64,000 nt of DNA from Methanocorpusculum sp. (GTDB taxonomy: Archaea > Halobacteriota > Methanomicrobia > Methanomicrobiales > Methanocorpusculaceae), in the NCBI GenBank assembly GCA_017387505.1, contig JAFOFB010000015.1, forward strand, positions 62,001-126,000, in the 5' to 3' direction. Below the pieces are notes generated by a model. It ran no database searches. It saw nothing but the letters and a program-made list of their open reading frames with translations, and was not told the DNA's origin. The translations under genes and the position numbers were made by a program. This document shows, one piece after another, positions 10,438-13,204 of the stretch. How positions within the stretch are numbered: the stretch's first letter is position 1; each line of letters begins with the position of its first letter.

Positions 10438-10842
10438 ATGAAAGACACCCTTCTCACAGACAGACAGAAAGAGGTCATCCGTCTTCGAAAACAGGGTGTG
10501 ACTCAGCAGCAGATTGCTGACCGCCTTGGCACGTCGAAAGCAAACATCTGTACTATAGAGAAGTCTGCCAACGAAAATATCCGCCGTGCAAAAGAGACTC
10601 TTGAGTTCTTGTATACTCTTGATGCAACCGAGCTTTGTACAATTCCCGCCGGAACTGATCTGATGGATGCTCCAAAGCTGATTTATGTGTCTGCCGCGCC
10701 GACGCATGTCAAGATTATATATGATACTCTGGCTCTGATTAACCGCTTATCATCTGCAGTCCCGGAGAAGTTTAAAGGTCGGCAGGTCAGGGAGGATATC
10801 AGTGTATATCTGAATAAAGACGGGGATTTGTATTTCAGTTGA
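10438..10842 (+). CDS. Tfx-family DNA-binding transcriptional regulator
   Basis: This 134-residue protein starts MKDTLLTDRQKEVIRLRKQG, followed by TQQQIADRLGTSKANICTIE, a helix-turn-helix typical of Tfx proteins of methanogens, which have a basic N-terminal HTH and an acidic C-terminal domain. In Methanothermobacter, Tfx binds near the fmdECB molybdenum formylmethanofuran dehydrogenase promoter. Here the neighbour is the divergent mtd. ATG 10438 is chosen because family members begin at this point; the longer frame from 10369 lies in promoter-like DNA. Confidence 0.85.
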   Translation: MKDTLLTDRQKEVIRLRKQGVTQQQIADRLGTSKANICTIEKSANENIRRAKETLEFLYTLDATELCTIPAGTDLMDAPKLIYVSAAPTHVKIIYDTLALINRLSSAVPEKFKGRQVREDISVYLNKDGDLYFS

Positions 10843-10880
10843 GATTCTCAACTTTACTATTTTTTACAAAACCGTAGAAG

Positions 10881-10896
10881 GATTTATTATATATTA
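10881..10896 (+). promoter_or_regulatory. Strong TATA box upstream of the structured region and rpl3
   Basis: GATTTATTATATATTA is the best archaeal TATA match near the ribosomal superoperon. It predicts a transcript start near 10911-10915, 535 to 540 bases before the rpl3 ATG. Confidence 0.6.
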
Positions 10897-10910
10897 GAAC
10901 TAATGATATA

Positions 10911-11449
10911 GGGCCTTTAATTAGGCTGATATCAGCGATTCTGCTGAAATGTGGATATCCAGTTGGTACAAAACAGCGCATTTCGCGTCTTGTTTTGTAA
11001 ATGTGTAACCCGGAGCGGTTTCCGCGGCCGGTGTTAAGACCTTCATAGGTCTGATGATACGCGCAGGGCGAACGTCTCTGATGTGCCCATCCTGAAAGTG
11101 CAGGAGCGCGTCGATGTCAGGTTCTCTTCCGTGAGACTTGGAAAATTACCGTTTGCCGTATTCTACGAGCAGACGCACCGCGGTTTATACCGGGTGATCG
11201 GGCTTTGAACAGATAAGACGTTATCGTGTTCAGTTTGGATATCCAGTTAGAGGATTTACAAAGTATAACCCGTCTTTTCAGTCCACCTGCAACTAGCAGG
11301 GAGACCAAGACAATAGTGTCCCGCGGGTCGATTCCAAAAAAGGAAGCCGGCGGTGAAAGATAGGCTGTCACATCTGATGACAACCAGCAGAACTAGTCTG
11401 AAGCGCTTGAAAAAGCAGATTCAGACACTATCACAGGATTGATTAAAAA
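10911..11449 (+). ncRNA. Unrecognised hairpin-rich RNA or very long leader before rpl3
   Basis: No convincing protein frame crosses these 540 bases, yet the region is dense in local inverted repeats. Stems seen by eye include 10968-10975 with 10991-10998 (ACAAAACA / TGTTTTGT, plus an inner GCG/CGC), 11015-11018 with 11022-11025, 11037-11041 with 11048-11052 (AGACC / GGTCT), 11286-11290 with 11296-11300 (CCTGC / GCAGG), and GTCTGA / TCAGAC just before rpl3. A strong TATA box precedes it. I could not see archaeal SRP RNA or RNase P RNA signatures on either strand. It could be a discrete RNA, or a leader controlling the ribosomal protein superoperon. Confidence 0.5.
10952..11272 (+). repeat. Duplicated module inside the structured region
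   Basis: The 13-mer TGGATATCCAGTT occurs at 10952-10964 and again at 11236-11248. Each copy is followed by an ACAAA stretch and then TAACCCG (11006-11012 and 11266-11272), 54 and 30 bases after the 13-mer start. The first ten bases of the 13-mer form a palindrome. A third GATATC-centred palindrome lies at 10925-10936. Confidence 0.65.
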
Positions 11450-12451
11450 ATGAGAACAGTGAGACCGAGAGCAGGTTCACTCGCATACTATCCGCGCAAG
11501 CGCGCCAAGGACATTATTCCAAAGTACCAGTCCTGGCCGCAGTACGACGGACAGCCAATGCTCCAGGGCTTCGCCGGCTACAAAGCAGGCATGACCCACG
11601 TGATCATGATCGATGATCACAAAAAGAGTCCGACTGAGGGCAAAGAGATTATGGTCCCGGTTACCGTAATCGAGATTCCGCCAATGACCGTTGCCGCAAT
11701 CCGCGTCTACGTCAAAGACACCTATGGCAAGCACCCGCTTACCGAAGTCTGGGCAGAGAACACCGAAGCACTCACCGGAAGAATCACCAAAGCAAAGACC
11801 AACAACGCAGCAAAAGCAACCGAGAAGATCAACGCTGCAATTGAAGACGTTGTTGAAGTAATGGTCTTAATGTACACCAAGCCAACCGCACTCACTGGTG
11901 TTCCAAAGAAAGTCCCAGACTTAATGGAAATCCGTGTTGCAGGTGGAAGCGCAGCAGACCGCTTTGCATACGCTCTTTCCATTCTCGGAACTGAGATTGA
12001 AATGTCCTCCCTCTTCGCAGACGGTCAGTTTGCAGACATCACCGGAATCACCAAAGGTAAGGGATTCAACGGTGCAGTCAAGAGATTCGGAATCACTCTC
12101 CGTAAGAGAAAGCACTCCAGAGCAAAGAAGACAAGACACATCGGTACCCTCGGTCCATGGCACCCTCACCACGTCAGATGGCAGGTCCCAATGGCAGGTC
12201 AGATGGGATTCCAGCAGAGAACCGAATTTAACAAGCGCATCATCAAGATCGGCGACAACCCAGACGAGATTAACCCGGCTGGAGGATTCCTCCACTACGG
12301 TCTTGTCCGTGGAAACTACGTCCTGATTAAGGGAAGCATTCCAGGACCGGCAAAACGCTTAGTCCGTATCCGCTCTGCAACCCGCATGGGTGAACAGAAG
12401 GTTCAGACTCCGGTTGTTGAGTTTGTCAGTCTCCAGAGCAAGCAGGGGTAA
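11450..12451 (+). CDS. rpl3: Large ribosomal subunit protein uL3
   Basis: This 333-residue protein is archaeal/eukaryal-type L3, which helps form the peptidyl transferase centre and binds 23S r[21 protein letters not shown] at the N-terminus, [12 protein letters not shown] in the middle and [19 protein letters not shown] are family hallmarks. It is the first gene of the S10-spc-type superoperon and lies directly behind the hairpin-rich region. Codon use is strongly biased to C-ending codons like the rest of the cluster. Confidence 0.97.
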
Positions 12452-13204
12452 ATGAGCATGAAAGCAAATGTAAAAGCAATTAACGGCTCAGTTCTCCGCG
12501 AAATCGAGCTCCCGGCAGTCTTCGATGAAGCATACCGCCCGGACCTTATCAAGAGAGCTGTCCTCGCATACCAGAGCGAAAACTACCAGGCATACGGTGC
12601 AGACAAGTACGCAGGTCTCAGAACCTCCGCAGAAGGCTGGGGATCCAAGCGCGGTGAATCCAAGATTCCGCGTATCAAGAACGGCAGCCGCGGTGCAAAA
12701 GTTCCGCAGACCAAGGGCGGTCACCCGGCACACGCACCAAAGGTAGAGAAAGTCCTCGTTGAAAAGATCAACAAGAAGGAGAAAGCAAAGGCAATCCGCT
12801 CCGCAATTGCAGCAACCGCAAACACCGAGCTCGTCACCGCACGCGGTCACAAGTTCGAAGGCGAAGCAGCAATCATCGTTGAGGATGCATTTGAATCCAT
12901 CGCAAAGACTGCAGAAGTCATCAAGGCACTCGTTGCACTTGGTGTCGGCGCAGACTTAGAGCGTGCAAAACTCTCCAAGAAGATCCGTGCAGGACGCGGA
13001 AAGACTCGTGGACGTAAGTACAAGCAGGCAGTCTCCGTATTAGTTGTCACTGCAGACAAATTCGTCGCAGCAAACAACATCGCAGGCGTCGACTGTGTAC
13101 CGGTCACCGCACTTAACGCAAACCTCCTTGCACCAGGATGCGACGCAGGCAGACTTACCGTCTGGACTGAAGCAGCCGTCAAGAAACTCGGGGAGGGAGC
13201 ATAA
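12452..13204 (+). CDS. rpl4: Large ribosomal subunit protein uL4 (archaeal L4/L1e)
   Basis: This 250-residue L4 protein lines the exit tunnel. The GWGSKRGESKIPRIKNGSRG loop and the PQTKGGHPAHAPK segment match archaeal L4/L1e. The start directly abuts the rpl3 stop; a second in-frame ATG at 12458 is close to the start used by homologues. It is followed two bases later by rpl23. Confidence 0.97.
   Translation: MSMKANVKAINGSVLREIELPAVFDEAYRPDLIKRAVLAYQSENYQAYGADKYAGLRTSAEGWGSKRGESKIPRIKNGSRGAKVPQTKGGHPAHAPKVEKVLVEKINKKEKAKAIRSAIAATANTELVTARGHKFEGEAAIIVEDAFESIAKTAEVIKALVALGVGADLERAKLSKKIRAGRGKTRGRKYKQAVSVLVVTADKFVAANNIAGVDCVPVTALNANLLAPGCDAGRLTVWTEAAVKKLGEGA

Follow-up and report, generated by a model that had tools for sequence, protein, structure and literature searches.

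To our knowledge, few cis-regulatory RNAs are known in archaea. The L4-Archaeoglobi leader (RF03135) was described for Archaeoglobi as a borderline candidate, and L4 was assigned as its ligand solely because binding of L4 is established for a bacterial leader (Eckert and Weinberg, 2020; PMC7247131). The archaeal S15 and eL15 leaders are likewise cis-regulatory and belong to ribosomal protein genes, but their motifs and ligands differ, and the body of the same article reports no overlap with a coding gene for them (Eckert and Weinberg, 2020). The bacterial counterpart operon, the S10 operon of Escherichia coli, encodes L3-L4-L23 and is regulated by L4 through a leader that mimics the 23S rRNA site (PMC7186457); it differs from the archaeal locus in its first gene and in mechanism, and the likeness comes without evident homology of sequence or fold.

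Here we describe the leader of the rpl3-rpl4-rpl23 operon in a stretch of 64,000 nucleotides from Methanocorpusculum sp., the whole of which is called the window. This leader shares with the L4-Archaeoglobi leader the same three-way junction, the P1 sequences CUGA/UCAG and the same site upstream of rpl3-rpl4. Unlike the described motif, the copy in the window lacks the surrounding gene, scores just below the cut-off and forms part of a much longer leader with extra domains. The surrounding gene encodes a PF02598 protein (Methyltrn_RNA_3, SPOUT1/C9orf114-like) and carries the RNA within its coding sequence in other archaea, whereas profile searches found it neither in the source genome nor in any other Methanocorpusculum genome searched. 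The element is thus homologous to RF03135 and its context is, as far as we could find, new: no link of RF03135 with PF02598 or with gene loss was found in the literature outside the supplement of the discovery paper, where its authors may have noted the overlap.

Genomic context of the rpl3 leader

The 5' neighbor of the leader is a Tfx-type regulator gene (10438-10842), which is closed by a terminator-like hairpin at 10837-10853, and its 3' neighbor is rpl3-rpl4-rpl23. In several other Methanomicrobiales, too, a coding sequence of the Tfx family can be recognized 5' of the rpl3 leader. The uL3 of the source genome is completely identical in amino acid sequence to that of Methanocorpusculum MAGs from goat and deer gut. 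The promoter and operon features are:

10883-10896, plus strand: TATA-like promoter element TTTATTATATATTA; congeners have a TATA-like element at the corresponding place
11435-11443, plus strand: ribosome-binding-site-like sequence AGGATTGAT, conserved in Methanomicrobiales
11450-12451, plus strand: rpl3 (uL3), first gene of the operon (Pfam PF00297)
12452-13204, plus strand: rpl4 (uL4), whose product is the putative ligand (Pfam PF00573)

The strong TATA box that the preliminary description had placed at 10881-10896 is therefore present, and archaeal TATA spacing would put the transcription start of the leader near 10908-10913. That description had also claimed that about 540 nt hold no usable protein frame, and indeed there is no conserved reading frame in this stretch before rpl3. 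On the plus strand, 10881-11449 contains no ORF of at least 60 aa, and the only longer frame is an antisense ORF of 88 aa (11117-11383). As plus-strand frames are not conserved and antisense frames show merely patchy similarity to relatives, a hidden protein in the leader was rejected. For PF02598, the leader contains neither an open frame nor a profile match.

The leader is a structured RNA

The leader of about 540 nt before rpl3 is a real structured RNA. When 20 Methanocorpusculum leaders were folded together with RNAalifold, the full leader reached an energy of -199.5, whereas 60 alignments simulated with the tree and site rates of the real one gave -84.7 ± 10.8 (z = -10.6). Segment by segment, folding better than in every simulated alignment was obtained for the 5' hairpins, the 5' domain, the L4-type element, the hairpin that follows it and the 3' domain; the segment 11145-11236 folded weakly (z = -1.6), and the controls, a promoter stretch and the internal linker 11245-11270, gave z values near 0. 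The long structured leader of a ribosomal operon proposed in the preliminary description is supported by these values, and its count of at least seven local stems is borne out by at least 10 conserved local helices in the consensus fold. Outside the L4-type element, the following local structures were obtained:

10913-10947, plus strand: two 5' hairpins, 10913-10917/10923-10927 and 10932-10937/10942-10947 (z = -5.3 for the segment)
10962-11055, plus strand: 5' domain with stems 10962-10974/10992-11009 and 11010-11018/11022-11031 and hairpin 11033-11042/11047-11055 (segment z = -4.4 and -5.0)
11117-11141, plus strand: hairpin UCAGGU.UCUC..GAGA.CUUGG, overlapping the 3' strand of P1 in some of its bases (z = -3.8)
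11209-11227, plus strand: conserved hairpin of the consensus fold, 11209-11216 with 11221-11227
11271-11386, plus strand: 3' domain with UCCCRY..RYGGUG core stem 11319-11324/11350-11356 and hairpin 11363-11369/11379-11385 (z = -4.1 and -5.6)
11396-11426, plus strand: terminal hairpin GUCUGAA/UUCAGAC, directly 5' of the ribosome-binding site (individual folds)

The 3' domain was seen in Methanocorpusculum and its sister genus and was absent from the other families read. The terminal hairpin forms in almost all sequences, and its bases turn over between clades while pairing is kept; its alignment score of zero is due to misalignment of this hairpin by MAFFT. Terminator-like sites were not seen on the plus strand inside the leader. 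Because it shares bases with P1, the hairpin at 11117-11141 might be an alternative to that helix, and a switch is possible.

When all pairs of positions were analyzed within Methanocorpusculum alone (G-test with APC, simulated null), no significant pairs were obtained, and three dominating clades leave this analysis without power. Leaders of some relatives are enlarged. In a Methanorbis-like genome (G015; L109/L071) the rpl3 leader extends to about 860 nt with the core kept; existing helices carry additional stem-loops at their tips, which amount to about 50 nt in P4, for instance. L095 and L096 (genomes G024 and G022) have about 70 nt that form GC-rich hairpins inserted in the counterpart of hairpin 11363-11385.

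The leader contains an L4-type three-way junction

At gathering thresholds, no Rfam family matched the leader region, and under a relaxed threshold there was a single match, to RF03135 (11051-11120, 32.1 bits, E = 2.5e-4). This score is 2.4 bits short of the curated cut-off of 34.5 bits. The same cut-off is exceeded by orthologous leaders of congeners (L018, 43.0; L017, 42.6; L020, 35.5; L006, 34.9 bits) and is also passed in many other Methanomicrobiales tested, including other families, and in other orders. The segment adopts the RF03135 consensus fold, a three-way junction of P1, P2, P3 with an inner stem, and P4, and it lies upstream of the rpl3-rpl4 operon, as the family does. The core at 11051-11120 is homologous to RF03135, and the 'undescribed structured RNA' of the preliminary description is thus undescribed only in part. 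The components of the core are:

11051-11120, plus strand: L4-type three-way junction, RF03135 homologue (Rfam, model R1, covariation, single-sequence fold)
11051-11055/11116-11120, plus strand: helix P1
11059-11064/11106-11111, plus strand: helix P2
11066-11069/11085-11088, plus strand: helix P3
11073-11076/11080-11083, plus strand: inner stem P3a
11090-11094/11101-11105, plus strand: helix P4

R1, a covariance model of non-coding leaders, scores the element in the window with 72.6 bits, recovers it upstream of rpl3 in most Methanomicrobiales loci and gives one match per whole genome in the source genome (G000) and the congeners G014, G016 and G004. R1 is narrow, since the copies at rpl3 in G068 and G094 are missed by it and matched by RF03135.

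The junction shows strong covariation. In alignment A3, which contains native sequences alone but was realigned to the model and leans towards its structure, 15 of 23 pairs changed on both sides and 94.9% of the junction cells were paired, compared to 30-49% when partners were slid; in the seed alignment A2, some rows had been shortened by hand for alignment. The phylogeny-aware covariation score was 0.367 in 44 non-coding relatives, coding copies having been removed, and the simulated maximum in 300 runs was 0.148. Given this large gap to the null and the independent single-sequence folds, it is unlikely that the model-fitted alignment explains the covariation.

The hallmarks of SRP RNA and RNase P RNA had been reported missing, and neither these nor any other Rfam RNA besides RF03135 matched the region at gathering or relaxed threshold. 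An archaeal C/D box sRNA was also considered and rejected, as several clades (G014 with CUGAUCAGAUG, for instance) lack the UGAUGA of 11052 and yet keep the junction. Upstream of rpl3 in the Methanosarcinales, the non-coding leaders L046, L048, L053 and L060 apparently carry a diverged three-way junction (GGGCC...UGCCC) that lacks P1; it was folded for L053, and R1 matches none of these four leaders.

The repeated modules are predicted to form one long-range helix

A duplicated module with a spacing of 284 nt had been noted within the leader. The 13-nt sequence TGGATATCCAGTT is indeed present as an exact repeat at 10952-10964 and 11236-11248, 284 nt apart, but 'ACAAA' and 'TAACCCG' did not extend the repeat, and in several other clades these parts are lost from the second copy. 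As GGATATCC is self-complementary, its direct repeat is also an inverted repeat, and the consensus fold of the 20 Methanocorpusculum leaders predicts base pairing between its two copies:

10953-10960, plus strand: GGATATCC in the first module, 5' strand of the predicted long-range closing helix (RNAalifold, pair counts)
11237-11244, plus strand: GGATATCC in the second module, 3' strand of the predicted long-range helix (RNAalifold, pair counts)

This predicted helix encloses the domain that holds the L4-type element. The proposal of two tandem binding domains is rejected, because TGGATATCCA is a palindrome whose copies are predicted to pair as one helix. Since this helix hardly varies within the genus, covariation is silent on it there. 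In the sister genus, the complementary 9-mers GAAGAGATC/GATCTCTTC occur at equivalent places in four of eight species, and the equivalent pairing is weaker in the remaining ones. A long-range GGATATCC/GGATATCC helix is therefore likely, though not proven.

The RNA element was retained where its host gene was lost

An intact gene immediately 5' of rpl3 encloses the element in Archaeoglobaceae, Methanothrix, two Methanomicrobiales and others; in Archaeoglobaceae the product of this gene is the PF02598 protein, a putative SPOUT1-type RNA methyltransferase. Among 247 genomes of the phylum, RF03135 matches were found in 141 and PF02598 matches in 122, the two occurring together in about 116, and wherever the coordinates of both were compared (about a dozen pairs), the RNA lay within the PF02598 gene. 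The RNA is present without PF02598 in 25 genomes, namely G068 and 24 Methanomicrobiales, one of which (G057) has only a weak, off-locus RF03135 match. Within the Methanomicrobiales, PF02598 was detected in 2 of 61 genomes (G039 and G048), in both with the RNA inside the gene. In a tree of uL3 and uL4, all other genomes of the clade that holds G039 (97% support) lack the gene, and G048 stands apart from G039. Several losses or, alternatively, precise re-gains at one and the same site have to be assumed, losses being simpler.

Around the element, non-coding leaders retain about 70-87% identity to coding copies (E down to 2e-17) with broken frames, and in some of them fragments such as REGVVIRHNGLT, followed by stops, persist. 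The plainest example lies outside the Methanomicrobiales: the gene is intact in G094, whereas in its Methanocella-like congener G068 deletions and stops have reduced it to a relic. Few parts of this relic are as well kept as the element region, and there the inner P3 stem (P3a) and P4 differ in sequence and form the same junction fold. The best reading of these comparisons is that the PF02598 gene was lost in ancestors of Methanocorpusculum and independently elsewhere (G068), and that the RNA element was kept. An RNA that outlived its host gene lends support to the borderline L4-Archaeoglobi motif. Gene-less genomes that keep the RNA amount to a natural experiment in which RNA constraint can be separated from protein constraint, and they illustrate one route to a long leader, survival of a regulatory RNA through decay of the coding gene around it.

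Proposed function of the leader and alternative explanations

With the structure, covariation and position of the element, the absence of the gene and the retention of the RNA established, we propose with reasonable confidence that 10910-11449 is an autogenous leader of rpl3-rpl4-rpl23 whose L4-type core was kept after loss of the methyltransferase, uL4 being the suggested ligand. The PF02598 gene carrying the element would have decayed while selection retained the element, which would then have become part of a larger leader that has 5' and 3' domains specific to the family as well as the predicted long-range closing helix. Surplus uL4, the product of the second gene of the operon, would bind the junction as a substitute for its 23S rRNA site and would thereby lower expression of the operon. 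Translation initiation seems a more likely point of control than termination, given the stable hairpin in front of the ribosome-binding site and the alternative pairing open to the 3' strand of P1 with downstream bases (11117-11141). Thus, of the earlier idea of a leader that senses a ribosomal protein or ligand, the ribosomal protein appears probable and the two modules as sensing domains are abandoned.

Three other explanations take the coding gene as their starting point. That RF03135 might be an artefact of protein-coding conservation, reflecting an OB-like insert of the methyltransferase, is suggested by Rfam matches outside the Methanomicrobiales that fall within the gene in the coding copies checked, but it is scarcely credible since the non-coding copies, in which structure and covariation persist without an open frame, refute it. 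Homology of the non-coding leaders to the coding gene, with stops and frameshifts, could also mean that the structure is left over in a non-functional relic; this is very improbable, as it is largely refuted by abundant compensatory changes in rows without the coding gene, by re-formation of P3a and P4 from different sequence in the G068 relic, and by hairpins beyond the element that are conserved too. It is equally improbable that the methyltransferase is the ligand and controls its own mRNA: the element does lie inside its gene in the coding copies checked, but it is conserved and covaries where PF02598 was not found, and an RNA that outlived its host gene argues against this protein as ligand.

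A ligand other than uL4 (uL3, uL23, L7Ae or a metabolite) is suggested by the position of uL3 and uL23 as products of the first and third genes of the operon and by an L4 assignment that relies only on the precedent of the bacterial leader (PMC7247131), but it is somewhat unlikely. Against it, there is the analogy with the bacterial S10 operon, and on inspection by eye the element displays no evident k-turn consensus. Furthermore, the P3 region GGGUG(G)AC..A-GCCC (GGGYGRAC...A-GCCC) loosely resembles GGGUGACAGUCCC of Methanocorpusculum 23S rRNA in a short match of about 10 letters. GGGUGACAGUCCC lies in the L4-binding region of domain I. Exact-match and antisense searches of the leader against 23S rRNA yielded no more than shuffled leaders did. 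Taken with the analogy, the resemblance suggests that uL4 probably binds the junction. A compound sensor, built from the remains of the lost gene, is rather doubtful; in it, the L4-type junction would be joined by Methanocorpusculaceae-specific 5' and 3' domains that recognize a second ligand, and the predicted long-range helix would couple the two. As to that helix, the GATATC palindromes (10929-10940, 10953-10960 and 11237-11244) could instead be DNA operators of a dimeric regulator that form no RNA helix, as they are near-invariant in Methanocorpusculum and the first lies just past the promoter. This is improbable, since the sister genus has not kept the palindromes and, in the four of eight species mentioned above, has other complementary sequences at the corresponding positions.

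Complete and cultivated members of Methanocorpusculum make direct tests of the proposed leader feasible. In one complete Methanocorpusculum genome (G016:C1), one and the same 16-nt match is repeated near 1424328, 1434405, 1444482, 1455194 and 1465567, and the spacing of about 10.1-10.7 kb suggests a tandem array of 10-kb units.
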